From: a virus
Direction: 5' to 3' (one strand)
IMG/VR virus record: IMGVR_UViG_3300035698_011739
Coordinates: 1 to 33,211 of that record
DNA: 33,211 bases
The position numbers were made by a program, and so were the translations under genes. Under the pieces are notes generated by a model that saw only the letters and a list, made by a program, of their open reading frames with translations, was not told the DNA's origin and made no database searches. The first letter of the stretch is position 1. Each line of letters begins with the position of its first letter. This document shows, one piece after another, positions 4,128 to 32,479 of the stretch.

Positions 4128-5870
4128 ATGTCAAATAAGTATATAATTAATGGTATTAAAATGTTATTTGATAACAAATCAGATGCTGCATTAATTTTGT
4201 CCAGTATTATTGTCAAAAATGATAAATTTAGCAACAATATAGGCGCAAATAAAATAAGAGATAATATTATTGAATCAGGTAATGATTTATATGTAGATGA
4301 TGATTTAAATCAATTACTTCATAATCTTATGAAAAGTGATTTAATTTTAGAACATATTAAAGAAGCTTCTGAAGAAGATATTAAAGAAATTAAAAATGCA
4401 AAAGTTTCAATGGAAAATTTACCAACCTCTATGGATGGTGGACATGTTCATAACGAATTAAATCCATACGGATTACATAGGCATGAATTTAAACATTTTC
4501 TTACAGGCGGGCATTCACATCCAGATGGAACACATTATCATCATGTTATAACAGACGAATATATATTTAGTAAATATATAGATGGTGGAGCACATACACA
4601 TTCTGGTAACAAAAATAAGCGTGGAATACACGAGCATGAATATACAGAGAATTCTAAAAAAGAAGAAGAATTATTAAATAATATTGGCTCTATTGGTAAC
4701 GGAAATGATGAAAGTGGGTATCCTGTTATTCTTATGGAACATGGCGTTGCATCCAGTGGACATTATTATCCAGAAAATGTTATGCAAAATAGCAAACAAG
4801 CTTTTATAAAAAATAATAGAAAACCATTAAGAGCATTTTTAAATCATGCTTCAAAATTAGAGAAAGCGCAAGGTATTAGGAATACAGAGAATATTTGTGG
4901 TATTTATAAAGATATCACTATTAATGAAAACAATAATGTTGAAGCTAAATTTTTTCCTACGATTGGAACGCCAGCAGGAGATTTGGCAAAATCATTATTA
5001 GATAATGATGTATCAATAGTTGATGTATCTACAGTAGTATTAGTAGGGTATAGACTTTTAACAAATGATGAAAAGAAATCTATTGATAATAGTAATGCAC
5101 GATTTATTGTTGAAGAAATTGTAAATTGCGCAAGTTGTGACTTAGTTCCAGATGGAGGTGCAGGTGGGAAATTTATTGAAGCAGTACAAAATGCAGGTTA
5201 TTATTTTAACGATGATGGAACTATTTTAATTAACGATGACATAAATAACAACGGAGGTGTTAATAAATTGGAATTAACACTAGAAGAATTAAAAACGAAA
5301 CATGCGGATTTGTATAATAGTATTATCAAAAACGCAAAAACAGATGTGTTAGGTGAACTTGAAACTCAAGGTAAAGAAGAGGTTTTTAAGTCTCAAATTG
5401 CTGATTTAAAAAATGAGGTTGAAACATCTGTTGAAACTCATAAATTAGAAATTGAAAAGGCTAATAAGGAAGTTAAGGATATTACTGCAGAGAAAGTTGC
5501 AATAGAAAATAAAATTAAAAGGTACGATAATACCGTTCTTGCTAATAAAATTGTAACAGAGCAGATGCCTTCATTATCTGGGAAACAACGAAATTACGCT
5601 ATAGATCAACTTTTAAATTGCAATACTGTTGAGGAAATGAATAGTGAGATTATTGAGTTTAAGGAAATTTTTGGAGACATTCTTGAAAAAAGTCCTGTAA
5701 TTAATAACGGCGATAATTCAGAAGAAAATTCTAAGAAAGATGAAACTGAAGATGCATTGAAAGATATTTCTATAATGTCTATAAAGAGTTTACTTAATGA
5801 CAATACTGGAATTGATAAAGATGGAAAATACAGTTCAATAATATTGAAAGATAGTGATGAAATTGATTAA
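4128..5870 (+). CDS. prohead protease fused to scaffold, with His-rich N-terminal extension
   Basis: The gene starts after a perfect AGGAGGTGAT site (4111-4120). Three parts are visible in the 580-aa product. Residues 1-190 are an extension containing a His-rich stretch (104-172) with six HxH motifs. Residues about 198-350 match the phage prohead protease type with herpesvirus-assemblin-like fold: SSGHYYPENVM, then LNHAS (likely catalytic His), then a VDVSTVVLVGY strand, then NCASCDLVPDGGAGG, whose Ser in ASCDLV is the likely nucleophile. Residues about 381-580 are a Lys/Glu-rich coiled coil typical of internal scaffold. The protein should guide procapsid assembly and then digest itself and the scaffold. 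Roles are inferred from motifs and from position before decoration and capsid genes. Confidence 0.85.
   Translation: MSNKYIINGIKMLFDNKSDAALILSSIIVKNDKFSNNIGANKIRDNIIESGNDLYVDDDLNQLLHNLMKSDLILEHIKEASEEDIKEIKNAKVSMENLPTSMDGGHVHNELNPYGLHRHEFKHFLTGGHSHPDGTHYHHVITDEYIFSKYIDGGAHTHSGNKNKRGIHEHEYTENSKKEEELLNNIGSIGNGNDESGYPVILMEHGVASSGHYYPENVMQNSKQAFIKNNRKPLRAFLNHASKLEKAQGIRNTENICGIYKDITINENNNVEAKFFPTIGTPAGDLAKSLLDNDVSIVDVSTVVLVGYRLLTNDEKKSIDNSNARFIVEEIVNCASCDLVPDGGAGGKFIEAVQNAGYYFNDDGTILINDDINNNGGVNKLELTLEELKTKHADLYNSIIKNAKTDVLGELETQGKEEVFKSQIADLKNEVETSVETHKLEIEKANKEVKDITAEKVAIENKIKRYDNTVLANKIVTEQMPSLSGKQRNYAIDQLLNCNTVEEMNSEIIEFKEIFGDILEKSPVINNGDNSEENSKKDETEDALKDISIMSIKSLLNDNTGIDKDGKYSSIILKDSDEID
5253..5270 (+). 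promoter_or_regulatory. internal ribosome binding site and TTG start for scaffold
   Basis: GGAGGTG (5253-5259) is followed after 8 bases by an in-frame TTG (5268-5270), codon 381 of the protease/scaffold gene, exactly at the junction between protease and coiled coil. The site is as strong as those of the major structural genes. It predicts a separate scaffold of 200 aa (5268-5870), as with the lambda C/Nu3 overlap. Confidence 0.7.
5268..5870 (+). CDS. nested scaffold protein (internal start)
   Basis: The predicted product is the C-terminal 200 residues of the protease/scaffold gene, read in the same frame from TTG 5268. It begins ELTLEELKTKHADLY after the initiator Met and continues as a charged coiled coil (about 30-90), then an acidic Ser/Asn-rich linker and a short C-terminal helical tail that could bind the capsid protein. 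The cleaved or unfused scaffold is normally needed in far larger amounts than the protease, which an internal start would provide. The start is inferred from sequence only. Confidence 0.6.
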   Translation: MELTLEELKTKHADLYNSIIKNAKTDVLGELETQGKEEVFKSQIADLKNEVETSVETHKLEIEKANKEVKDITAEKVAIENKIKRYDNTVLANKIVTEQMPSLSGKQRNYAIDQLLNCNTVEEMNSEIIEFKEIFGDILEKSPVINNGDNSEENSKKDETEDALKDISIMSIKSLLNDNTGIDKDGKYSSIILKDSDEID

Positions 5871-6468: not shown

Positions 6469-7377
6469 ATGAAAAAATATTATTCATTAGAACATGCATT
6501 TAATACAGAGGCTGATTTTCCTCTTCATTTAGAAAAATCTATTCAGGATACTTTATATAAGGCGTACAACGATACTCCTGCTATTTATCCATCTATAGTC
6601 TCTGAAAAGCAGTCAACGACTAATAAAGAAAGATACATGGGTGTTTATGGGTCATTAGACCTTGCTCCACTTGAACCACTTGAGGAATATGCTGATTCAT
6701 CTTTAAACGAGTCAGGATTGGATATTTACAACCGTAAATATGGTAAGACTATTTCTTTTCCTTGGGAACTCATTGAGGACGACATTAGAGGAGTATTTAC
6801 AGATATTCCTTCTAAATTCGGAAAAGGCTATAAAACTACACTTGATAGAGCAGTAATAGATGTTATAACAAATACATCTCATTATTCAGCAGAACGTGGT
6901 AATTTAGTTAGCACTACTCCAGAATTTTCATATGATGGAATCGTAGAAGCGTATGATTTATTTGATGCAATGAGAGGACAAGATGGCGAATACATCAACC
7001 TTGCTCCAGATACATTGCTCATCCATCCAACACAAAAATGGAAGGCATATGAGATTTTTGCTAAGGAAAGAACTATTTTGACACAACCAACTAGAGGAGC
7101 TAGTGCCGAAATGACTGGTTCATCTGTTATTGAGAATCCACTTATTGATCGTTTCAAAATCATTAGTTCACCTTATTTGCCTAACAAATTGGCTTGGTAT
7201 TTATTTAAGGCTAAGGCTGGTATGGTTCATCAGAAGAGAAAAGCTCTTCAAGTTTGGACTACAACTCCAACTTCAGCAACTATGATGCATAACGATGCAT
7301 ATATAATTAAAGCTAGAACACGTTTTGGAATTGGTATGGACGATTATCATTTCCATATATATAGTCCTGGTGTCTAA
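6469..7377 (+). CDS. major capsid protein (HK97 fold, Mu gpT-like)
   Basis: The 302-aa product has a long N-terminal arm, a central stretch YGKTISFPWELIEDDIRG (about 91-108) followed by a helix with GKGYKTTLDRAV, and a C-terminal beta-rich region. The YGKTISFPWELIEDD pattern followed by a helix is characteristic of Mu gpT-like major capsid proteins of the HK97 fold. It is preceded by AGGAGGTGA (6452-6460) and followed by a strong hairpin. Position after scaffold and decoration supports the call. No cleavage site for the protease is obvious; the N-terminus reads MKKYYSLEHAFNTEA, so there is no large delta domain. Confidence 0.85.
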   Translation: MKKYYSLEHAFNTEADFPLHLEKSIQDTLYKAYNDTPAIYPSIVSEKQSTTNKERYMGVYGSLDLAPLEPLEEYADSSLNESGLDIYNRKYGKTISFPWELIEDDIRGVFTDIPSKFGKGYKTTLDRAVIDVITNTSHYSAERGNLVSTTPEFSYDGIVEAYDLFDAMRGQDGEYINLAPDTLLIHPTQKWKAYEIFAKERTILTQPTRGASAEMTGSSVIENPLIDRFKIISSPYLPNKLAWYLFKAKAGMVHQKRKALQVWTTTPTSATMMHNDAYIIKARTRFGIGMDDYHFHIYSPGV

Positions 7378-7439: not shown

Positions 7440-7832
7440 ATGCAACTCCCCATTATAATGAATTCATATGTAGGTATAGTAGATGTAATAGGTGTAGATA
7501 ATTTATATACAATAGATAATGACACACATTATACTGAATGGATCGATGTTAGTGACTCATTAAATAAGGCTATTTTTATTAGTGTATCAGATAAAACTGC
7601 TGGTGATATAGTTTGTCAATTACAATTTAGCCACGATGGATCAACAGCATTTGATGCAGATGGTACAAGTACATTTACCATATCAGCAGATGGCGATTAT
7701 GTTTATACTAGCATGTCTAGTTCATTAACATTGCCACCATTAGGTGATTATACCCCTTATATGAGATTAAAAATTGTATCTGCACCAACAACTGCAAAAT
7801 TACAAATTAAATTTACAGGTATTGATGCATAA
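7440..7832 (+). CDS. beta-sandwich virion protein, paralogue of the 31430 gene
   Basis: The gene has AAGGTGA 5-6 bases before its ATG. The 130-aa product is almost entirely predicted beta strand, with motifs LQFSHDGS, TISADGDYVY and DYTPYMRLKI. The same order appears in the 31430-31933 protein (IEYSHNGI, TFNSDGDYEI, DYSQYMRLRF), so the two share one domain of about 100 residues. Lying right after the capsid gene, it may be a head surface or head-fibre protein; this is inferred. It ends directly at the ATG of the next gene. Confidence 0.7.
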   Translation: MQLPIIMNSYVGIVDVIGVDNLYTIDNDTHYTEWIDVSDSLNKAIFISVSDKTAGDIVCQLQFSHDGSTAFDADGTSTFTISADGDYVYTSMSSSLTLPPLGDYTPYMRLKIVSAPTTAKLQIKFTGIDA

Positions 7833-10004: not shown

Positions 10005-10529
10005 ATGGCTGACGCAACATTTGATTGCTGTGGAACTTTAGAAATAACCGTAGGTGTTGAGGGTTTACTTTATTATTGTGATGCTTTATTAGGAACATTT
10101 GATTATCCTACTGGTGGAACTTGGACTTGTCTTGGATTTGTTACAGAGTTTTCATTTAATGAAACCACAAATGTAAAAAAAGTCCCTTGTAGATATTCCC
10201 CAGTACATCACACTAAGAAAGGTCGTCCTGAAAGAACATTTAATATTGGGCAACTTTATACAGAGTACGCTAATAATATTTGGGCAATTAAAGATACAAC
10301 AGTTGATTTTAGACTTGTTATTAATAAAGATGGAGATGAAACATCCGCTGGAACACCAGATGCAGATGAAGTAATTTTCTTATATAACGCTATTATAGAA
10401 TCTATTGGGTGGAGTATGCCTGATACAGATGAAGTAACTACTACCGCAGATGGTAGTTATGATAGGGTAGAATTTGAGACTGATGGAACTCTTTATGGTG
10501 CTATTTCAGATTATGATCCTACACCTTAA
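10005..10529 (+). CDS. major tail tube protein
   Basis: The gene has a perfect GGAGGTG site (9994-10000), one of only five in the window, consistent with a high-copy product. The 174-aa product is beta-rich; it includes LGFVTEFSFNETTNVKKV and RTFNIGQLYTEY, then DEVIFLYNAIIESIGW, a layout of strands with one helix as in siphophage tube proteins. It precedes a strong hairpin, a paralogous gene and the frameshifted chaperone genes, the classical site of the tube gene. Several Cys (CC near 9-10, plus C25 and others) are unusual for a virion protein. Confidence 0.7.
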   Translation: MADATFDCCGTLEITVGVEGLLYYCDALLGTFDYPTGGTWTCLGFVTEFSFNETTNVKKVPCRYSPVHHTKKGRPERTFNIGQLYTEYANNIWAIKDTTVDFRLVINKDGDETSAGTPDADEVIFLYNAIIESIGWSMPDTDEVTTTADGSYDRVEFETDGTLYGAISDYDPTP

Positions 10530-10611: not shown

Positions 10612-11109
10612 ATGGCAACCACATCAGAAGCATGGTCATTTTTAGAATCATCTATGTTTATAAACAAAGGTTTAGTTACTAAGTTTATAGGATTTGCTAC
10701 TGATATATCATTGTCTATTTCATATGAAGTTCTTACAGTAAATGCTGGACGTTTTTCTTCTGATAAAAAACATTATATAACTGCAAAAAATGTAGAAATT
10801 AATATTGGAGCATTATGGTTTGCGAACAATAATGACCCTAGTATAGATGCATATACTCCTTTTGAATTATTTGGTGTTAATGGAAATTACGATGACACTA
10901 ATAGAAATGATGAAATAACATTTTTATTTAAACTTATTAATCAAGATGAATGGACTGACGATTGTGTTACACCAGATTGTGGTGATTATGAAGTTGAAAT
11001 GGAAGTGGTTGGAAAAATTGCCAGTTATGACATAACAGGTAATGATCCAGATATAATGATAAGTAAAATAAGAATATTAGGCGAAAAAATAAAAATAACA
11101 TATAATTAA
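10612..11109 (+). CDS. tail-tube-like protein, second copy
   Basis: The gene has AAAGGAG 4-5 bases before its ATG. The 165-aa product aligns loosely with the tube protein: IGFATDISLS against LGFVTEFSFN, then VEINIGALWFA against RTFNIGQLYTE, then NDEITFLFKLIN against ADEVIFLYNAII. It is therefore likely a divergent paralogue with the tube fold. Options are a minor tube subunit, a tube initiator or a tube decoration. It lacks the strong GGAGGTG of the first copy, which suggests lower output. Confidence 0.55.
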   Translation: MATTSEAWSFLESSMFINKGLVTKFIGFATDISLSISYEVLTVNAGRFSSDKKHYITAKNVEINIGALWFANNNDPSIDAYTPFELFGVNGNYDDTNRNDEITFLFKLINQDEWTDDCVTPDCGDYEVEMEVVGKIASYDITGNDPDIMISKIRILGEKIKITYN

Positions 11110-12089: not shown

Positions 12090-15000
12090 TTGTCCAACAT
12101 GGATGTCACATTAAGAGTTAGAGATGAGTTTACTTCTCCAATGCAGAGGTTTAGACGAGTAACTGACCAAACAATGGAGAAGATCAAGACTAGGTTTACT
12201 GGAACTACTGCTGCAGTTGAAAGGATGCAACGTGTTTCTTGGAGATTAGGTCTTACTGGTGCTGCTATTGGTGCAGGATTCTTGCTTGCAACAAAGACAT
12301 CCATGGCGTTTAGACAAGAAATGGCTAATGTTGGGGCTGTTATTAATTCTACGACACATGAAATGTATGGATTGACGATGGCTGCTAGAGAGATAGCAAA
12401 AACAACACCTTTATTAGCTAAAGAAGCTGCTAAAACTTTATTTATCTTAGGACAGGCTGGATTTAGTGCTAAAGAAGCAGGAAAATTATTAAAAGATGTT
12501 GCTACATTGGCGTTGGCTACTAATAGAGATTTAAAATTAGCTGGTGCTATTATGGCTGAAACATCACATTTGTTTGGTGCTGCATTAGGTGATACTACAA
12601 TAGCAATGAATATATTTGCTCAAGCTGCAGCAGCCTCTCATTTGATGCTTGGAGATATTCAACAGGCAATGAAATATGTTGGTGGTTCTGCATCTGCTCT
12701 TGGTGTTGATATGAGAGATTTAGTTGCTGCATTTGGTCTTATGGCTGATAATGGTATTAGAGGAAGTAAGGCAGGTGCTGCTCTTAATATGTATTTCCAG
12801 CGTTTACTTAATCCTACTGCTGCTGCAACAAAAGTATTAAAAGCACATGGCATATCAATTTTAGAATTGACAGATGCAATTAAATCTGGAGATGGATTAA
12901 CTGAAGCATTAAAGATGCTTTCTGAAGCACAATTTGATGCTGGTGAAGTTGCTGTTATATTTGGTAATAGACAAGGTTCTAAATTAATAAAATTAATTAA
13001 CGGTGGTTCAAAAGCATTAACAAAATATAGAGAGAAATTTATACTTGCTGGTAAAGCAACTGAAATAGCTTCTAAAAAAATGGATACTCTTACTGGTGAT
13101 GTTATTAAGTTAAAAAATCAATTTGAAGAATTTCTTTTAAGAATAGGAGATGCTTTAACTCCTGCATCAAGAGCATTAGTACAAGCATTTGAATCTATTG
13201 GAAAAGCAATTAATACAATTCCTGCTCCTATATTGGCATTTATAACTGGTATAGGTGCTGTGTCTGCTGTTATATTAGTATCAGTAGCAGTAATGGGACA
13301 TTTTCTTTCATCATTAATGTTGTTCGCTAACATATATCCTCAAATTACATTAACAATTCACGATTATATATCAGCAATATTTGGCGCTAATACACAAACT
13401 GCTACTAATGTTGCGCTTACAAATAAACAAACAAATGAATTATTAGCATCAACAATATCAACAAAATCTAAAACTACTGCAGTTATGGATTCTACTATTG
13501 CCCTTTCAAATTATAATAAAGTATTAATGACTAACATTGCATTAGAGAATCAAAGATATTCACCTGCAAGACTTATTGGAAGGTCAAAATTATACGATCA
13601 ACAAGTTAAATCAACAAATTTACAAAAACAATTAAATCTTGCAAAATCTTCACATTCAACAGGATTAAGTGCAAGAGAAGCAATGCTTGTTTCTCGTTAT
13701 AAAAATGATGTAACTTCATCTACAATATCAGGTAAAGATTGGGCTAGATTATTTCAGGAAAGAGCTCGTGCTACAACGCCATCACAAAAGAGACAAGTTA
13801 CTTCAGCATTTGCTAATTCTGTTGGTTTATCAACAGATGCAGTTATGACTGGGTTGCTTCTTATGCCAAAAGGTACAAGAACAGGATTATATAATGTTGC
13901 AAAAAATGCATTAAAATTACCACCAGAACAAGCAAGAGCATTATTAGAATTGCGTATAAATAAATTACAACTTAATAAAGGTGCTTATGAAGCATTAAAA
14001 CATAGTGTTGCTACGAAACATTTTGGTGTATCTGGTTCTGATTTAAGTAAATTTATGTCTGGTATGGGTGTATCTGAAAAAACAAAATTAAATGATATGG
14101 CGAAACAAATGCACTCTCAACTTACACAAGTATTTCCAACACATAAAGGAAAAATTAACTTAAAAGATTATGGGCATTTACCTGAAATTAATAAAAATTA
14201 TGATCAATTTACAAATAATATAGCAAATACATATTATGATGATATATATAATATGCAAAAAGGCATTAATAATACTGTTGCTGATCAAATGTTAGGTAAA
14301 AGTAAAAATCCACCATCATTTGATCCAAGTGATGTTTTTTCAAAAGATAAATTTGTTAAAAAATATGGTATGGAAACATATCAAGCAATGATAATTGAGG
14401 ATTTTGAAAAAAAATCAGGTAAACCTATGAGTGCTGCTGGACGTGCAAAATTAGAAAAAGCATTAAATAATAATTTTCGTAAAACAATAGATAAAGTTAG
14501 ATTAGCAAAAGGTAGAAAAGTATCTGGTGTAGCAGATTTGGCTATTGCAGGTAGTATGATGTTTGGACAAGGTGTTGCCGGCATTGGAAGAAAAACAATT
14601 GGTGGACTTGCTGGATTAGCATACAATATGGGAATACTTGGTGATAATACCATTGCAGTTACTTCTGCATTGGCAGCCAACACAACCACTGTTGCTGCTT
14701 GGAGTGCTCAAGTAGGTATTGGTGGAGTTGCTGCCGTAGTTGGTCTTGGAGTAGCAATAGCAGCAATAATAGCCATTATAGGTATAACAATTTATAAATG
14801 GTATAAATTTAATCAAGCAGTTAAGCAATCAAAAATAGAAATGTCTAAATATAATAATGTATTTGATACATATATTGAATTATCAAAAGTGCAATCAGCA
14901 GAAGATCAAAAGTCATCTGGGTTTAATGCAATGGATACCATAGGGTTAGGTAAAAAGCGTGGGCATTTTATAAGAGCAGCAATGACTGAAAATCAAAAAG

Positions 15001-16778
15001 AATTAGATAAAATATTAGATGAAGATGAAATATTGTCTAGGGCATTTACTAAATTAACAACTAAACAAAAAGAATTATTGGATGAATATTTAACACCAAA
15101 AAGTATTTCTAGTGGAACTCCAATATCACGATTAACTAAATTATTCAATAAAGATTTGGATGAATTTAATAAACTTGGGGCTTCATTAACAAAACATCAA
15201 ACTGGATTGTTGAAAAAATCTGCTGTAATGCAATCTATAATTGGTGAATACGAACAGATTAGAACAATCCTAGCAGGTGGTCCATCTGGTCCAAATGGAA
15301 ATAGAGGGCAAAGATGGGATTACCTTAAAGAAAATGAGGCGGAACTTAAAGCACATTCGGATAATATAAAAAAAATAACATCAAAAAATAAAGAAGTTAT
15401 TGGAATAAATTTATATAACAGGTCTAAAGGTGTTACTGGTTTATTTGGACCAGGTGGTCGTGAATACTTATCAAAATATTCTCCTGAATATTGGGATAAA
15501 AAATTTAATAGATATATTATGCGATTAGGCGATGAAGTTATAACAGCATCTGATGCTAAACATTTGGATGAACTTGCTGAAGCATACGATAAGATATCAA
15601 AAGGAAGACTTTTATCAAGAGACTTATCGTTATCTGTTGTAGATGATATAAAATATAAATTAAAACTTAGTAAAGAAAATCTTGATGTTACACAAAGAGA
15701 AGCAAGACTTTTAGGTAAAGAGAATCAATATTTATTAAAAGGTAATCAATTAACACTTCAAAATTTAAGAAATGTATTTGGTGGATTAGATGGTATAGAA
15801 AATGTAATAGAATATAGACAATCAGAATTAGAATTAATGGAAAAAATTGCTGATTTAAAAGTTAAAATGGGCGAAGAAGAAATGTCAAAATATGACAGAG
15901 TAGCCAAATTAACAAAAGAACCATTAGACAACCAAATAAGAGCATATCAGGATATAATTAGTCTTACATCCAAAAGGTTTGAAGGTGAAAAACTTGTATC
16001 GCAACAATTAGTTGACTTCCAACTTAAAGGACTTGAGTCAATTATATCTAAACAAAAAGAACTTGCTGATTTAAGAAAGTCTGATGCAGAGAAATATATT
16101 GATTATTTAAAATCTTCTGGAATGTTAAAGGAAGGCGGAATAAAAGAATTAAATGTTCTTAAAGTGTTACAACAACAATATGCAACTTCTTTTGGTGATA
16201 AACTTTCGTATCAAATCAAAATAGAAGATGTAATGAAAAATATGCTCAAAAATATGGGATATGATTCAAGTAAGTTTGTACCATATGAAACATCAGATAG
16301 ATTTGGTTTTGATAAATCAAATACAATATCTCCATCTAAATTTATGGAAATAGCATCAAAATATTATGGAAAATCAATAAATGATTTATTTACAAGGCAA
16401 TTACAATTTACTGGTGCAAGTTTTAAAAAGACTGCATTAGGGATTCCTGTACCAGAATTAGCTGGTGGGTTTAGAGCAGGAGGACAATCTACTGCAGCAG
16501 ACCTTATAAAGGCAGGCGTTGGATCATTAATGACTGGTGAACAACAATTTAAATTGCCAGAACAATTAAAGGAATTTAAAATTAGTGAAATACATGTTAA
16601 TAATGACCTTAATTTAATATTACCAGATTCTGCTGGTGCAGAGATAGCAAATAAATTAAGAGAAATATCAGCTAGTTATGGAGTTAGATTTAAACAAGAT
16701 AAAAATCAAGAAAATATGAGAGACAAAGCAGAAGAAGAAATGGACAATTCATTATATGATAGGTTTGGTGGTAAATAA
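12090..16778 (+). CDS. tail tape measure protein
   Basis: This is the longest gene, 1562 aa, just after the chaperones as expected. It starts at TTG 12090 with AAGGTGA 7-8 bases upstream; an ATG at 12099 is too far from that site. Residues about 60-320 match the phage minor tail / TP901-type tape measure core, with FRQEMANVGAVIN, TPLLAKEAAKTLFILG, and RGSKAGAALNMYFQRL. Hydrophobic segments near 377-411 and 876-903 may enter the host membrane during injection. The rest is largely helical, with a coiled coil near 1200-1330. It sets tail length and occupies the tube lumen. Assuming about 0.15 nm per residue, a rule of thumb, the tail would be over 200 nm. Confidence 0.93.
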   Translation: MSNMDVTLRVRDEFTSPMQRFRRVTDQTMEKIKTRFTGTTAAVERMQRVSWRLGLTGAAIGAGFLLATKTSMAFRQEMANVGAVINSTTHEMYGLTMAAREIAKTTPLLAKEAAKTLFILGQAGFSAKEAGKLLKDVATLALATNRDLKLAGAIMAETSHLFGAALGDTTIAMNIFAQAAAASHLMLGDIQQAMKYVGGSASALGVDMRDLVAAFGLMADNGIRGSKAGAALNMYFQRLLNPTAAATKVLKAHGISILELTDAIKSGDGLTEALKMLSEAQFDAGEVAVIFGNRQGSKLIKLINGGSKALTKYREKFILAGKATEIASKKMDTLTGDVIKLKNQFEEFLLRIGDALTPASRALVQAFESIGKAINTIPAPILAFITGIGAVSAVILVSVAVMGHFLSSLMLFANIYPQITLTIHDYISAIFGANTQTATNVALTNKQTNELLASTISTKSKTTAVMDSTIALSNYNKVLMTNIALENQRYSPARLIGRSKLYDQQVKSTNLQKQLNLAKSSHSTGLSAREAMLVSRYKNDVTSSTISGKDWARLFQERARATTPSQKRQVTSAFANSVGLSTDAVMTGLLLMPKGTRTGLYNVAKNALKLPPEQARALLELRINKLQLNKGAYEALKHSVATKHFGVSGSDLSKFMSGMGVSEKTKLNDMAKQMHSQLTQVFPTHKGKINLKDYGHLPEINKNYDQFTNNIANTYYDDIYNMQKGINNTVADQMLGKSKNPPSFDPSDVFSKDKFVKKYGMETYQAMIIEDFEKKSGKPMSAAGRAKLEKALNNNFRKTIDKVRLAKGRKVSGVADLAIAGSMMFGQGVAGIGRKTIGGLAGLAYNMGILGDNTIAVTSALAANTTTVAAWSAQVGIGGVAAVVGLGVAIAAIIAIIGITIYKWYKFNQAVKQSKIEMSKYNNVFDTYIELSKVQSAEDQKSSGFNAMDTIGLGKKRGHFIRAAMTENQKELDKILDEDEILSRAFTKLTTKQKELLDEYLTPKSISSGTPISRLTKLFNKDLDEFNKLGASLTKHQTGLLKKSAVMQSIIGEYEQIRTILAGGPSGPNGNRGQRWDYLKENEAELKAHSDNIKKITSKNKEVIGINLYNRSKGVTGLFGPGGREYLSKYSPEYWDKKFNRYIMRLGDEVITASDAKHLDELAEAYDKISKGRLLSRDLSLSVVDDIKYKLKLSKENLDVTQREARLLGKENQYLLKGNQLTLQNLRNVFGGLDGIENVIEYRQSELELMEKIADLKVKMGEEEMSKYDRVAKLTKEPLDNQIRAYQDIISLTSKRFEGEKLVSQQLVDFQLKGLESIISKQKELADLRKSDAEKYIDYLKSSGMLKEGGIKELNVLKVLQQQYATSFGDKLSYQIKIEDVMKNMLKNMGYDSSKFVPYETSDRFGFDKSNTISPSKFMEIASKYYGKSINDLFTRQLQFTGASFKKTALGIPVPELAGGFRAGGQSTAADLIKAGVGSLMTGEQQFKLPEQLKEFKISEIHVNNDLNLILPDSAGAEIANKLREISASYGVRFKQDKNQENMRDKAEEEMDNSLYDRFGGK

Positions 16779-18206: not shown

Positions 18207-18470
18207 ATGACAGATTATACAAAAAAACAATATGAAGAAATGATAAATTCAGCAGCAGAGATTATATTACATGCTAATAACGGTAGATGCCCTGTAAAGT
18301 GTACAAAATATATGGATAAAGTAATTGACCCATGTGTTGCTGGTGATATATGTTTATCTAGTTGTCCAGATAGTATATTACAATGCTGGATAAATTACAT
18401 TTATTGTGAAGAATATCATTATAGAGATTTTAATGATAATGAAGAAGAGAATGGAGATGAAATAAAATGA
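18207..18470 (+). CDS. small cysteine-rich protein, 87 aa
   Basis: I choose the ATG at 18207, one base after the previous TAA; the frame is open from 18162 but only across the preceding gene. A helix (1-25) leads to a Cys-rich centre: CPVKC, then CVAGDICLSSC, then a later pair in QCWINYIYC, eight Cys in about 40 residues. This looks like a metal site or, less likely inside the cell, a disulfide knot. The tail is acidic. It overlaps the next gene by ATGA. Its place in the tail-tip operon suggests a small structural or assembly role, otherwise unknown. Confidence 0.6.
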   Translation: MTDYTKKQYEEMINSAAEIILHANNGRCPVKCTKYMDKVIDPCVAGDICLSSCPDSILQCWINYIYCEEYHYRDFNDNEEENGDEIK

Positions 18471-18889
18471 CAGGTGGAAAAATTAATATTGCTCCTACAT
18501 TTACTAAAATAGTACCATCAAATGATATTTTATTTGCCTATTACATTACTTCAAGTCCACTTGCTGGAAGAGATAGTGTTACCAATAAACATCTTATATT
18601 AGATGATATTACAAGTGTTGGATATTGTACGTTAGTTAATGCTATTTGGTCAGAGGTTAGTACAACTATACCAAGCGGAAGCGAAGATTGCGCATTTCCA
18701 ATTGGGTCTAATCCAAATGATGATGTGTATATAAAATACGACGTATATGAAGATGGCGGAAGTAATTATTGTGATATAACAATAATTAATAATAAAGATG
18801 TACCAATTTATTATGGATATATGTTTAGAAAAGTATATCCAGCACCAATTAATACACCATCAACTGGTGGCGGAAATCCTTGGGAATAA
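18467..18889 (+). CDS. tail-tip protein, paralogue of the 20327 gene
   Basis: The ATG overlaps the previous stop. The 140-aa product is beta-rich. Its C-terminal half has NPNDDVYIKYDVYEDGGS followed by IINNKDVPIYYGY, nearly the same as NPNADVFIKYDAYEDSGS and IINNKDVPIYAQY in the 20327-20680 protein, and the similarity is visible in the DNA too. The two copies flank the 18917 gene. A Gly/Asn/Pro tail (PSTGGGNPWE) ends it. The fold is probably a small beta sandwich; the function is not known. Confidence 0.65.
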   Translation: MTGGKINIAPTFTKIVPSNDILFAYYITSSPLAGRDSVTNKHLILDDITSVGYCTLVNAIWSEVSTTIPSGSEDCAFPIGSNPNDDVYIKYDVYEDGGSNYCDITIINNKDVPIYYGYMFRKVYPAPINTPSTGGGNPWE

Positions 18890-20326: not shown

Positions 20327-20680
20327 ATGGCACTATTTACTAGATATAATAGTAATTGGGGATTATTATTTCGTTATACTACTGTAGATGTTATAAGCGG
20401 TAGAAATAGCGAAACATTTATGCATGAAATAACAGAAGTAATAGATAATCCTTTTTCTATTGTACCTTTGTTATATATTTATGCAGAAGATGAAGATTTT
20501 ACAACTACTCAATTAATGTGTAAAAATCCTAATGCAGATGTATTTATTAAATACGATGCATATGAAGATTCTGGAAGTTATTACGTTAAGGTTAGAATTA
20601 TAAACAATAAAGATGTACCTATATATGCTCAATATGTATTTTTTATTCCATTATATAGTGAAATTAATAACCCAATTTAG
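20327..20680 (+). CDS. tail-tip protein, paralogue of the 18467 gene
   Basis: The ATG directly follows the TAA of the previous gene, so coupling is likely. The 117-aa product shares its C-terminal half with the 18467-18889 protein (about 30 of 50 aligned residues by eye around NADVFIKYDAYEDSGSY and IINNKDVPIY). The N-terminal halves also start alike (FTRYNSNWGLLF against FTKIVPSNDILF) but diverge more. It lacks the Gly/Pro tail of the other copy. Probably a tail-tip subunit that duplicated and diverged. Confidence 0.65.
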   Translation: MALFTRYNSNWGLLFRYTTVDVISGRNSETFMHEITEVIDNPFSIVPLLYIYAEDEDFTTTQLMCKNPNADVFIKYDAYEDSGSYYVKVRIINNKDVPIYAQYVFFIPLYSEINNPI

Positions 20681-20690
20681 AGGTAATATA

Positions 20691-21350
20691 ATGTCAACAA
20701 CATCAGCATCAGCAATAATAAGACTTAAAGAAACAGAACAAATAATGATGGAAGTATATGATTCATTAGGTCAGCTTGAAACTGGAACTCCTGGTGCTGT
20801 ATATATTACTATTATAAAGATAGATGAATGTACTACACCTGAAACTATTATATCAAGAACAAATATAGGCGTTACAGAGATCGTAGATGATGATACACCA
20901 GCAAATGATCTTGGATTATGGTGTTATTGCTGGACTCCTACAGAAGAAGGAACATATCTTGTATTTATGGAATCTGGTGTGACATTTGATAGAAAAAATG
21001 TTACTGTTGCAGAACTTTCAGTAATAGTTAGTCTTTCACCAATAACAGATACAGAACAAAGACGTGAAAGAAATTATTATGCATTAACAGAAGTGAGCAC
21101 AGGATATAGATTTGTTCCAGTAGATCATTGTTCACATGTACATGTACAATTAAAAACTTATAATTCTCCTGATTTTGATGCTGTTGATTATGTAGAGGCG
21201 GATCATATGATTGCTGAATATTACATTGTATATTATTATGACAATGTAACACCACATGATTTACCAAATAAAATGATAAGAGAATCAATAGCACCAGTAG
21301 ATGGCACTTTTGAATTTAAATATCCAAATGGTATTGGAGCACGTTGGTAA
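20691..21350 (+). CDS. beta-rich tail protein, 219 aa
   Basis: The ATG at 20691 has AGAGGTAA 4-5 bases upstream; the frame is open from 20613 only inside the previous gene. Residues about 5-115 look like an Ig-type sandwich: MMEVYDSLGQLETGTPGAV, then LGLWCYCWTPTEEGTYLV. This pattern, with a strand-turn-strand ending in GTYLVxxE, is frequent in phage proteins that describe an applied property with limits. The second half (about 125-219) is another beta domain with HCSHVHVQL. No named family. It overlaps the next gene by 7 bases. Confidence 0.6.
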   Translation: MSTTSASAIIRLKETEQIMMEVYDSLGQLETGTPGAVYITIIKIDECTTPETIISRTNIGVTEIVDDDTPANDLGLWCYCWTPTEEGTYLVFMESGVTFDRKNVTVAELSVIVSLSPITDTEQRRERNYYALTEVSTGYRFVPVDHCSHVHVQLKTYNSPDFDAVDYVEADHMIAEYYIVYYYDNVTPHDLPNKMIRESIAPVDGTFEFKYPNGIGARW

Positions 21351-22681
21351 ACTCAACCCTTAAAGAAATTCTTTGGCGCAATCGTCTTGGACATGCAATG
21401 CAGGTTCAGGATAAACTTGCGCTTCGTAGAGGTAGAATACCAACATGGTTTGGACCAGAATTTAGAACTGTAAAAACCAAATGTTCTATTTCTTTTAAAG
21501 TATTAAATGAAGAAGCACCTATTTATAACACTGTTGGATTTAAAATACGTGGTAATAAGTTTTTTTATAATACAGTAGGGTTTAAAGTTAGAGGTTTATT
21601 ATCAAGTTGGATTCAAGATAATAAAAATACAATAGCTTGGAAAATAAGAGGAGCAAAGTTAAGTAGATTATCACTTGCATTTAATGTAAAATATTATAAT
21701 CAAATAACTAAATGTTCATTATCTTTTAAGATATCAAATAAATTAAGAGTATATAACACAACTGCATTTAGAATACTTAATCATGGTATTGGTAGCTCAA
21801 GAGTAGAAAATACTATTTCATTTAAAGTCCATGGTGAAAAAAGGTTTCTTAATACATTAGCATTTAAAGTATTAGGTGCTAAAAGAACATTTAACACAAT
21901 AGGATTTAAAGTTAAAAATGCTGTTGCTCCAAAATATATGACTGTTGGATTTAAAGTTAAAAATACAGATAGAACATATAATACTGTTGGATTTAAAATA
22001 AATAAAGGAATTAAATTATATACGGATGCATTATTCCTTACGGAGAATGAAAAAGATGATGAAAATTTTCAATCTTTATTATCAACGTTTTTGGAAAATT
22101 ATGATTTGCAATATGGAACAACATTATCGTTGGTCTATGGTGTTCCCAGGGTTTATTCTAATGATGCTACACCTGTTCAATACACATTAGATACAGACTT
22201 TACATGGGATGGACAAAATCATCTTATACAACGTAAAACAGGAGGTAGTATAGCAATAGATGAAGAAGTAGATATAGTATATGGTCTTGATTATTCAAAT
22301 ACAGACAACAATGTAGTAATAAATGATCCATATATTCCATTTGTATCTGATTTAGTTGTTAAAAGTCTTGATGAATTAACTACATATACAGATGGTGTTG
22401 ATTATACATTTGATACAGAAAATTTTAAAGTTACAATTATTGATGGTGGAAATATAGGAAATAGACAATTTGTAAGAATGGAATATGGTACTTCTAATCA
22501 ATTTATGGAAAGGAATTTTATAACACAAGGGCATAGATTAATGGAAATTCCTTATTTTTATGATATAAATTTATTTACAGATGATGGATTCTTTTTAATG
22601 AAAGATGAACATTATATATACACTCCTAGCAATACAAATTTACAATGGACAGCGTTAGGATATAGTTTATTTGGTGGATAA
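21344..22681 (+). CDS. tail protein with twelve FKV repeats and two C-terminal beta modules
   Basis: The start is TTG 21344, with GGAG (21336-21339) upstream and overlap with the previous stop. After a basic N-terminus (1-45), residues 47-222 contain twelve copies of a short unit with consensus [Y/F]NT[V/I]GFKV[R/K]G. The key aromatic is at 51, 66, 80, 99, 113, 128, 142, 160, 174, 188, 203 and 217. The step is 14-15 residues, with 18-19 at two breaks. The rest has two similar blocks, YTLDTDFTWDGQNHL...VDIVYG and YTDGVDYTFDTENFK...VRMEYG, like a common phage sandwich module. The repeats probably form a beta solenoid or stacked strands. Neighbours point to a tail-tip or fibre role. Function unknown. 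Confidence 0.75.
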   Translation: MVNSTLKEILWRNRLGHAMQVQDKLALRRGRIPTWFGPEFRTVKTKCSISFKVLNEEAPIYNTVGFKIRGNKFFYNTVGFKVRGLLSSWIQDNKNTIAWKIRGAKLSRLSLAFNVKYYNQITKCSLSFKISNKLRVYNTTAFRILNHGIGSSRVENTISFKVHGEKRFLNTLAFKVLGAKRTFNTIGFKVKNAVAPKYMTVGFKVKNTDRTYNTVGFKINKGIKLYTDALFLTENEKDDENFQSLLSTFLENYDLQYGTTLSLVYGVPRVYSNDATPVQYTLDTDFTWDGQNHLIQRKTGGSIAIDEEVDIVYGLDYSNTDNNVVINDPYIPFVSDLVVKSLDELTTYTDGVDYTFDTENFKVTIIDGGNIGNRQFVRMEYGTSNQFMERNFITQGHRLMEIPYFYDINLFTDDGFFLMKDEHYIYTPSNTNLQWTALGYSLFGG

Positions 22682-25051
22682 ATGTTTAATATAAATATAA
22701 CACAAGATAATAAAACAAAAATAAAAACAGAAACTGATTATATATTAATTGGTGGCAATACCTATTTATGTTTTTTAAATTCTCCAACATCTAATGCATA
22801 TACTACATTGGTTGAGTTATTAGATGAAAATAATAATATTGGTGCTACGAATTTAACAATTAGTCAAAAAATAAATATGTCAACATTAATTAGTTTTAAT
22901 ATGCTTGGAACTGATATGATGGATATATTTAAAGCAGAAAACAAAACTATTATTGCGGTTTATAGAACTGACAATGATAATACAAATATTCGTGAATTAT
23001 TTAGAGGAGTTGTTACAGGGTATTCAGTAAGTCAAGCAAAAACATTACAAGTTCAAGCAAAAGATTTTTCATGGGCATTATATAATGATGATGTAGAATT
23101 GGGTAAAAGAAATTATGGTATAGAAACATATAGAATGGTTAAAGTAATAAAACAAACTGGTGATTTCTTTTATAAAAGATATAATGTAGATACAGAACCT
23201 CCTCCAAGTTTTTTTGGTGATCCAACAAATAAATTTGCTGAAGTCATTAATTTATATGATATGAAATTATATCCTTATGCATTTGGTATTATTAAAATAG
23301 CATTTGCTAATAGAGATAGTAGCATTGAATATTTAGATAGTTATGAATTATATTTTAGAGATTTTGCAATAGAGAATTATAATGCTGTTGGAAAATCACC
23401 AGGACAAATAATATCAGAAATATGTTCAATGGCTGGAGCATATATGAAAATAGATGGCAATAGATTAATTATATTAGAAAAGAATTATAATATAAATGCT
23501 CCAAAAATAGTGTATAATGATGATAATTTATTATCTCTTGACAAGGCTGATACAAAAAATACATATTATAATGCAGTTATTGTAAGAGGTAAAAGTACAC
23601 CATTTACATCTATAAATTATTTTAAAGAAAATAAACCATTTGATGCATATCCAGATTTTGTTGACTTTAATGGATATGATTTGTTAGCAAATGAAGATGG
23701 GATTTATACACCACAATCTGGGTTTTCACAATCAGAACCACAGCCATTAAAATATTATGTTCAATACGATAGTGATGTATATGATGGAAGTACATTAGAG
23801 ATTGTTGGTAATGCTGTAATGTTACAAGATTTTGAAGCATTTAATGAGAATACAAGCGTTGGACAAGTTGTATTAGGTATTCCAATAAATTATTATGATT
23901 TAAGATTATCACCACCGTTTATTATAGACCCTATAACAAAGCGTAAAATATATAATATGCATGGTGTGGTTGTAGATGCTTCAACTGGATCAGGAGTTCC
24001 AGGAGTACCTGTAAGAGCAGTTCGATTTAAAAATGCAAGTGCATCATTAATGACAGCTCCAGATATATACGAAACTGTTACAAGTAAAACAGGAGCATAT
24101 ATGTTTAATAATGTTCCTCTTGGAGAATATAGAGTAGAATCAAATTATTTAGATAATAGTACAAATTTATATAATTCATCTATAGAAAGTTCAGATTATT
24201 TAAGCGATAGTTATAGAAACCTTATACATGAATCTGAATATTGGGATGGTGTATTATCAGATAATTTTAATTCTGGTTATCAATTGTTACCAACAAGATA
24301 TTCATTTGAAGTATATATACAAAAAAAAGACTATCCAGATTCAAGAGCTAATCCAGGTGGAAACTATAGAGATGGAATAAATAGCACAATAGGAAGCGTA
24401 TTTATGGAAGTTAGGTTACATGGTACTAATAGTAGTAATATTAGATATGCACCAATTTTAGAAAGTGTTAATGTAACAACAGATGAATTAGCTGTACATA
24501 TAGGAGAATTAATACTAAAGGGTTCAGATCAGAAAAAAGATATAACTAATATGGTAGCATTAGGAAGCGAAAATATGCTAATTGGAGATTGTGCTGTATT
24601 AAATAGTTCACAAATGAATTCAAATTATGATTTTTTAGTTGAAGAAATTACAAAAACATTACATGGTGCTGTTCATAAAGATAATATTCGTGGTGGATAT
24701 GGAAGTTTACAAGATGCAGTTTCTAAAGTTAATGGTCTTATGATAAGAGATGATATTATAATAGGTGTTGTTCAAGAGGTGCATGAATTTTCTCCTAATG
24801 TTCCAGTACCAACTCATGATGATGTACGTTATGATGTAGTAATATATAAATCTGGTAATAATAAAATTTTAACAAATGTATCTGCAACTGGTGATAGACG
24901 ATATATTTTAAATTCAAGAGCAGTATTTGAAATGCCACAATACAATGCTGGCGATGTAGTTTTAGTAACGAACGCTGTTTCATCACCAGATAGAATAATT
25001 GTTGGTAAAATTAATAATGCATATCAAAGTAGGAAAATAGTTTATGTCTAA
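22682..25051 (+). CDS. tail hub / baseplate protein with inserted carboxypeptidase-regulatory-like domain
   Basis: The ATG follows the previous TAA directly. The 789-aa product begins with a beta-rich part containing LFRGVVTGYSVSQAKTLQVQ, as in tail hub proteins (gp27/gpD-like), followed by SPGQIISEICSMAGAYMKID (about 242-262), a helix-then-strand block also seen there. Residues about 426-490 (MHGVVVDASTGSGVPGVPV, then TSKTGAYMFNNVPLGEYRV) match the carboxypeptidase-D regulatory-like beta-sandwich. Residues about 692-785 resemble an OB fold (IIGVVQEVHEF...GDVVLVTNA...DRIIVGKI). It probably forms the ring that closes the tail tube. The inserted domain could help adhesion. Confidence 0.7.
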   Translation: MFNINITQDNKTKIKTETDYILIGGNTYLCFLNSPTSNAYTTLVELLDENNNIGATNLTISQKINMSTLISFNMLGTDMMDIFKAENKTIIAVYRTDNDNTNIRELFRGVVTGYSVSQAKTLQVQAKDFSWALYNDDVELGKRNYGIETYRMVKVIKQTGDFFYKRYNVDTEPPPSFFGDPTNKFAEVINLYDMKLYPYAFGIIKIAFANRDSSIEYLDSYELYFRDFAIENYNAVGKSPGQIISEICSMAGAYMKIDGNRLIILEKNYNINAPKIVYNDDNLLSLDKADTKNTYYNAVIVRGKSTPFTSINYFKENKPFDAYPDFVDFNGYDLLANEDGIYTPQSGFSQSEPQPLKYYVQYDSDVYDGSTLEIVGNAVMLQDFEAFNENTSVGQVVLGIPINYYDLRLSPPFIIDPITKRKIYNMHGVVVDASTGSGVPGVPVRAVRFKNASASLMTAPDIYETVTSKTGAYMFNNVPLGEYRVESNYLDNSTNLYNSSIESSDYLSDSYRNLIHESEYWDGVLSDNFNSGYQLLPTRYSFEVYIQKKDYPDSRANPGGNYRDGINSTIGSVFMEVRLHGTNSSNIRYAPILESVNVTTDELAVHIGELILKGSDQKKDITNMVALGSENMLIGDCAVLNSSQMNSNYDFLVEEITKTLHGAVHKDNIRGGYGSLQDAVSKVNGLMIRDDIIIGVVQEVHEFSPNVPVPTHDDVRYDVVIYKSGNNKILTNVSATGDRRYILNSRAVFEMPQYNAGDVVLVTNAVSSPDRIIVGKINNAYQSRKIVYV

Positions 25052-31429: not shown

Positions 31430-31933
31430 ATGAAAAATATGATAATAAATAAGAATACTTCAATAAATGGTATAGAAAGAAATATATCTACTGGATATTC
31501 TTTATTAACAAGTGGTTCTGAATATGTAACTGATGCTATAGATATACGAAATATTGCATCAAAAACAATATATTATAGTACAGAGTTTATAGATTCATCA
31601 AATACTGTTACTTTTCATATAGAATATAGTCATAATGGCATTACATGGTATGAACCAGATTCTACTGTATCGTTGACGTTTAATTCAGATGGGGATTATG
31701 AAATAGGATTATATACATTAACAAAATTAAATGATTATTCTCAATATATGAGATTGCGTTTTGAATCTTGTACTGAAGATTATGTAATAAAAATAAAAGT
31801 ATGTGGTATAAGTTTATCATCGAAATATGTACGTTCCCCATTTTGGAACAATGATTCTGAAATATATTATTTATTAACAGAATCAGGGGATTATGTATTA
31901 ACAGAAGATGGAGATAGAATTATCTTAGGGTGA
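31430..31933 (+). CDS. beta-sandwich protein, paralogue of the 7440 gene, with C-terminal LTEDGD motif
   Basis: The ATG follows AGGAGATTAAA. Residues about 35-128 share a domain with the 130-aa product of the 7440 gene: IEYSHNGITWYEPDS and NSDGDYEIGLYTL, DYSQYMRLRFE, KIKVCGI. The last 20 residues, YYLLTESGDYVLTEDGDR, contain a tandem LTExGD unit of the kind often found at the ends of phage structural proteins, possibly a trimerisation or attachment tip. The copy near the head genes lacks this tail. Probably a fibre-tip or virion surface protein. Confidence 0.7.
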   Translation: MKNMIINKNTSINGIERNISTGYSLLTSGSEYVTDAIDIRNIASKTIYYSTEFIDSSNTVTFHIEYSHNGITWYEPDSTVSLTFNSDGDYEIGLYTLTKLNDYSQYMRLRFESCTEDYVIKIKVCGISLSSKYVRSPFWNNDSEIYYLLTESGDYVLTEDGDRIILG

Positions 31934-31939
31934 TAAAAA

Positions 31940-32479
31940 ATGATTATATATAAAGCAGAATATAAAAATAAAGTTTATATAGGACAAACTATAAACGATT
32001 TAAAAGTTAGGAAGTGGCAACATAAAACTAAATCTAAATTAGACAATAAAAATTCACATTTTCATAATGCGTTAAATAAATATGGTTGGGATAATTTTAA
32101 ATGGACTATATTAACTAGACCAAGTTGTCAAGAAGCATTAGATAAAGCAGAAAAATTTTATATTAAATTTTATAGAGGATGTGAAGATATTGAATGTTTA
32201 AATTTAACAGACGGTGGTGAAAGTCGATCTAGAGGATATAAACATTCAAAAGAAGCAAAAATAAAAATGAGTAATTTTCAAAAAGGTAAAAAACTTTCTG
32301 ATGAAACTAAAAGAAAAATAAGTGAATCTGGTAAAGGTAAAAACAAAGGTAAAAAATTTTCTGATGAACATAAGAGAAAATTAAGCGAAGCAGGTAGGGG
32401 TAAAAAATTATCTAAAGAATATAAGAGAAAAATGAGTTTATCTGCTAATGGCAAAAAAGCATCTAATGAACTAAAATGA
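31940..32479 (+). CDS. GIY-YIG homing endonuclease with NUMOD3 repeats
   Basis: The 179-aa product starts [17 protein letters not shown] (a GIY...YIG variant with IIY at 2-4 and YIG at 13-15), has the catalytic Arg (R24 in VRKWQHK) and Glu (E71 in [11 protein letters not shown]), and N88 in LNLTDGG. Spacing matches I-TevI-type nucleases. From about residue 100 there are four NUMOD3-type DNA-binding repeats ([37 protein letters not shown]). The gene sits between a fibre gene and the next fibre gene with its own AGGGTGATAAAAA site, as free-standing homing genes do. It stops inside a fifth repeat because of an apparent one-base deletion. The core domain is intact, so activity is plausible. Confidence 0.92.

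Follow-up and report, generated by a model that had tools for sequence, protein, structure and literature searches.

What does a viral tail-region protein build from twelve copies of a 14-15-residue unit? The reach of viral attachment organelles is set by repetitive shafts and, to our knowledge, few sequence rules for such shafts have been described. The window analyzed here (33,211 nucleotides, IMG/VR record IMGVR_UViG_3300035698_011739, positions 1 to 33,211) encodes a conspicuous repeat array in a 445-residue protein. An earlier note on this DNA had ascribed the array to a tail protein and had considered a beta solenoid or a stack of strands as its architecture. We have reanalyzed the array, the remainder of the protein and its genomic setting, and have compared the units with known repeat folds.

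The repeat array

The gene of the repeat protein and the features referred to below are the following:

21344-22681, + strand: repeat-protein gene, 445 aa, TTG start (open reading frame list and sequence)
21344-21475, + strand: residues 1-44, basic N-terminal segment, net charge +6, possible anchor (assigned from charge)
21482-21595, + strand: repeat group 1, units 1-3, central F at residues 51, 66 and 80 (motif positions)
21626-21781, + strand: repeat group 2, units 4-7, central W99, F113, F128 and F142 (motif positions)
21809-22006, + strand: repeat group 3, units 8-12, central F at residues 160, 174, 188, 203 and 217 (motif positions)
22016-22678, + strand: acidic C-terminal half, residues 225-445, net charge -24, pI 4.05 (charge)
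22181-22285, + strand: tail beta module, first copy, residues about 280-314 (self-alignment; alignment to the sheath gene L327)
22337-22486, + strand: tail beta module, second copy, residues 332-381 (L327 sheath; phrog_18315 and phrog_807; NF052337)
12090-16778, + strand: tail tape measure protein, given for context (TIGR01760, 1.7e-48; phrog_1533, 2.3e-62)
22682-25051, + strand: 789-aa product of the next gene downstream, a probable Tal-like tail hub (from its position and N-terminal sequence)

The TTG at 21344 was chosen as the probable start codon because it overlaps the end of the preceding gene (stop TAA, 21348-21350) and is shortly preceded by a GGAG at 21336-21339. The twelve units occupy residues 47-222 of the open reading frame, which confirms the previously given coordinates 21482-22009. 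Their consensus is N-[TS]-[VIL]-[GAS]-F-K-[VI]-x-[GN] (n = 12) with a dominant period of 14. Successive central aromatic residues are 15, 14, 19, 14, 15, 14, 18, 14, 14, 15 and 14 positions apart; six of the 11 spacings are 14, three are 15 and two are 18-19, and the long ones (residues 80 to 99 and 142 to 160) divide the array into groups of 3 + 4 + 5, exactly as had been noted. A 5-mer motif was matched 12 times, whereas 2000 shuffles averaged 0.06 matches and never exceeded 2; the identity autocorrelation at lag 14 reached z = 7.1. Twelve copies of 14-15 residues are hence well beyond chance.

Conservation is concentrated around the central aromatic (F in 11 units, W in one). T or S is found at F-3 and G, A or S at F-1 in all twelve units, F-2 is aliphatic in 11, F+1 is K or R in 11, F+2 is V or I in all twelve, and F+4 is G or N in 10/12. 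The longer consensus proposed in the earlier note, [Y/F]NT[V/I]GFKV[R/K]G, is overstated in part: the leading aromatic (F-5) occurs in 6/12 units only, G directly before F in 5/12, R/K at F+3 in 6/12 and the final G in 5/12. The linkers between units are variable. Among the repeat families seen in the DNA, the longer ones are 60-75% identical, and conserved residues are encoded by differing codons; the duplications are thus old, with a maintained protein motif. The array is a real, well-maintained repeat without an assigned family, in a tail protein.

Tail setting and C-terminal half

The repeat-protein gene sits between the tape measure gene and the long protein that opens the following baseplate-like genes. 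This long protein, the probable hub, begins at 22682 directly after the stop of the repeat-protein gene. It is without a PHROG match and contains a carboxypeptidase-regulatory-like insert (PF13620, 1e-5, below cut-off).

Residues 225-445 hold two copies of a beta module, whose self-alignment score was reached by 2/1000 shuffles; the score of either copy against the sheath encoded by the prophage gene L327 was reached by 0/1000. The second copy is 42% identical to a stretch of L327, which is a tail sheath gene by Pfam (PF04984, 3e-26). For phrog_807 (“major tail protein with Ig-like domain”), the same stretch of L327 gives a match at 1.3e-10 and the window module alone a weak one (0.0072). For the second copy, further weak matches were obtained with phrog_18315 and, below cut-off, with the NCBIfam tail tube model NF052337 (8e-4). 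L327 was found in a search of 395 genomes with E = 3.8e-4 per genome, so that the relation is drawn from the agreement of several weak signals. The module is common to phrog_807 major tail proteins, an insert in the L327 prophage tail sheath and, in two copies, the window protein; however, phrog_807 proteins are not known to carry an FKV array, and none is present in the L327 sheath. No credible match came from PDB sequence searches, and in the AlphaFold2 single-sequence model the whole C-terminal half remained below pLDDT 50. Judged from sequence, the modules in common with sheath and tail proteins are the best evidence for a tail protein and, together with gene order, lend independent support to the earlier assignment.

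It is conceivable that a repeat-rich, non-virion accessory gene came to lie in the tail module by chance, and the whole protein indeed matches no tail family. We regard this as highly improbable, given the C-terminal modules in common with tail sheath and tail proteins and the tight packing of the gene, whose start codon lies within the end of the preceding gene and whose stop is followed directly by the next start.

Searches for relatives

No Pfam or NCBIfam family and no PDB sequence matches the array, in line with the earlier statement that no named domain could be assigned. A faint match to phrog_36276 (function unknown; E = 0.0014) covers 43 residues only, and repeats can inflate such scores. 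Protein searches found no relatives of the array in IMG/VR, plasmids or GTDB contigs, none in phage records even at E = 10, and none in 1138 genomes of three phyla; a match in L326 was discarded, as it read through two stop codons and opposite other open reading frames. A protein search of viral contigs with the repeat protein, the probable hub and the capsid protein likewise returned no relative. The array is thus an “orphan” only within the collections searched.

Viral contigs and genome contigs were also scanned with degenerate DNA patterns spanning two or three units. Almost all matches in viral contigs were out-of-frame or antisense readings and were rejected; among the matches listed in one scan, many were YadA-type SHAEG repeats read on the antisense strand. 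The genome contigs yielded no phage tail relative. One comparable case emerged among the listed matches, a gene in the IMG/VR contig L076:

L076, 1-1341, - strand: gene adjoining baseplate genes, ending in at least three SFDFKV units at 14-residue spacing and cut by the contig end

These units resemble the window array in their 14-residue spacing, their F-K-V core and the position of the gene beside baseplate genes. In contrast to the window units, they read F-x-F-K-V-x-V with D before F, and at least three are present. Searching with a profile of the window units gave them no score and no significant alignment; the two repeats may be convergent. A further pattern match, in L116, lies on the antisense strand and was dismissed. 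The sense gene there (4560-4904, + strand) has an unrelated 14-residue repeat: its 114-aa product starts with a YG-rich segment, continues with four 14-residue TLTLKRTVREFV-like units and ends in TKPTTNW repeats. This gene is small and lies among structural-looking genes.

Comparison with known repeat folds

The triple beta-spiral forms the shaft of the adenovirus fibre and of reovirus sigma1. Like the array, it combines a repeat of ~15 residues with alternating hydrophobics on one strand (c, e, g) in a viral attachment organelle. Its consensus requires hydrophobic residues at c, e, g, k and m and Gly/Pro at turn j (PMC3150272). With c, e and g placed on F-2, F and F+2, these positions are hydrophobic in 11/12, 12/12 and 12/12 units, but k and m are so in only 4/12 and 5/12, and Gly/Pro at j occurs in 1/12, the G/N of the array (10/12) falling one position earlier. 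The alternative register, with k and m on F and F+2, leaves c, e and g hydrophobic in only 4, 5 and 4 of 12. The period, too, is mostly 14 instead of ~15. The failure of k, m and j led us to reject membership in this fold, although the array may work like a triple beta-spiral.

A one-chain beta solenoid, for example a left-handed beta-roll of the YadA-head type, was the other candidate. The YadA-type motif, GxNSVAIGAxSxAx, has a conserved glycine at position 8 (PMC9543794). Its layers share the 14-residue period of the array (lag 14, see above), and the first five positions of the unit resemble the canonical NSVAI (N in 8/12, S/T in 12/12, V/I/L in 11/12, a small residue in 12/12, a hydrophobic one in 12/12). 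The regular small residues of the second half of the motif, however, are absent: Gly8 is found in 0/12 units, G1 in 0/12, a small residue at position 9 in 0/12 and at position 13 in 1/12. No YadA model matched the array in Pfam scans, and in the fetched loci a profile of the units did not significantly detect the repeat proteins of YadA type that phages encode. The lack of Gly8 argues against a YadA-type beta-roll, and because each of the two folds fails at a defining feature the window protein is filed under neither. A closed one-chain coil would moreover lack a second hydrophobic wall, as each 14 residues supply a single hydrophobic strand and the linkers are polar; by this reasoning from the strand pattern, burial between chains or sheets is more likely. 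A beta solenoid in the sense of a closed one-chain coil, as suggested before, is therefore not borne out, and we consider any solenoid quite improbable.

Structure prediction added little. AlphaFold2 run on the single sequence (mean pLDDT 34.9) placed a strand at most units, with pLDDT about 35-46. For a five-unit stretch with 4 alignment rows pLDDT was 60.8 without any secondary structure, and four of the five models remained near 40. Neither prediction supports a fold. The stack of strands raised in the earlier note is plausible from the V-x-F-x-V alternation, and is weakly suggested by the low-confidence model.

A putative oligomeric shaft

The best explanation, to which we give a little less than an even chance, is a tail-tip structural protein in which a beta-stranded, probably oligomeric shaft joins an anchor to acidic Ig-like modules. 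Each 14-15-residue unit would form one short beta strand (T-V-small-F-K-V) and then turn at G/N into a variable linker. The strand would have one hydrophobic face (V, F, V) and another bearing T, the small residue and K. Since there is only one hydrophobic strand per unit, the hydrophobic faces would most likely be buried between chains, which would create a stiff, probably trimeric beta shaft running from the putative N-terminal anchor to the C-terminal pair of acidic Ig-like tail modules. The alternating V-x-F-x-V pattern, together with the all-small F-1 and the T/S F-3 columns in twelve units, is consistent with this scenario, as are the strands predicted at most units, despite their low pLDDT. 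The position between the tape measure gene and the baseplate-like genes, the C-terminal tail module and the SFDFKV gene next to baseplate genes in L076 point in the same direction. On the other side, the units do not fit the triple beta-spiral, the known trimeric shaft consensus; no oligomerization domain was recognized in the repeat protein, and the searched collections provided no relatives for a comparison of conservation.

Two alternatives must be weighed against the shaft. The array could be chiefly an electrostatic surface, in which a ladder of positive charge, made of the lysines aligned at F+1 and further basic side chains, binds an anionic host-envelope polymer or acidic neighboring tail proteins. 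Charge is unevenly distributed along the protein: the N-terminus plus array carries +34 and the C-terminal half -24. The array itself has a net charge of +28 over 180 aa and a pI of 10.6, and among the window's open reading frames of at least 180 aa the most basic 180-residue stretch is found in this protein (+29; tape measure protein, +18), nearly all other tail open reading frames having a pI of 4.1-5.1. Yet the array's positive charge may do no more than pair with the acidic half of the same protein or with its neighbors, and any binding is putative. We regard a chiefly electrostatic role as rather unlikely; it can be compatible with a shaft, which possibly has a charged face as well. A globular, non-fibrous antiparallel beta domain of 12 strands (a meander, sandwich or barrel) would likewise accommodate one amphipathic strand per unit, linkers of about 7 residues would suit a meander, and the groups of 3 + 4 + 5 could be sheets. 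But strands this alike and this evenly spaced are uncommon in globular domains and nothing speaks positively for such a domain, which makes this arrangement improbable.

Should the array prove to be a trimeric shaft, the unit would provide a readable rule for finding such shafts in other viruses and for counting their length. That it even represents a new beta-fibrous fold used in viral attachment organelles, with one strand per 14 residues, V-F-V faces buried between chains and the lysine ladder exposed, analogous to the triple beta-spiral but following another repeat rule, seems unlikely to us. If it is not a shaft, the array is a clean orphan repeat all the same, linked to tail modules, and a useful target for structure determination.

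Other features of the window

The major capsid protein is encoded at 6469-7377; its best annotated relative, identified by tblastn, belongs to a virus of the archaeon Methanoculleus (L4768; 26% identity). When L4768 was compared directly with the window proteins by phmmer, no match passed the reporting threshold. Several pairs of related genes were detected. The products of 18467-18889 and 20327-20680 are paralogous small tail-region proteins (E about 1e-17), both with INNKDVPIY and separated by a 469-aa gene. Adjacent genes at 10005-10529 and 10612-11109, upstream of the tape measure gene, are probably related (E 7e-4) and possibly encode two tail tube proteins; the product of the former matches phrog_15602. 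Another paralogous pair (E about 1e-13) comprises 7440-7832, near the capsid genes, and 31430-31933, at the distal end of the tail module; the latter has a weak DUF6385 match. A GIY-YIG homing endonuclease with four NUMOD3 motifs is encoded at 31940-32479.
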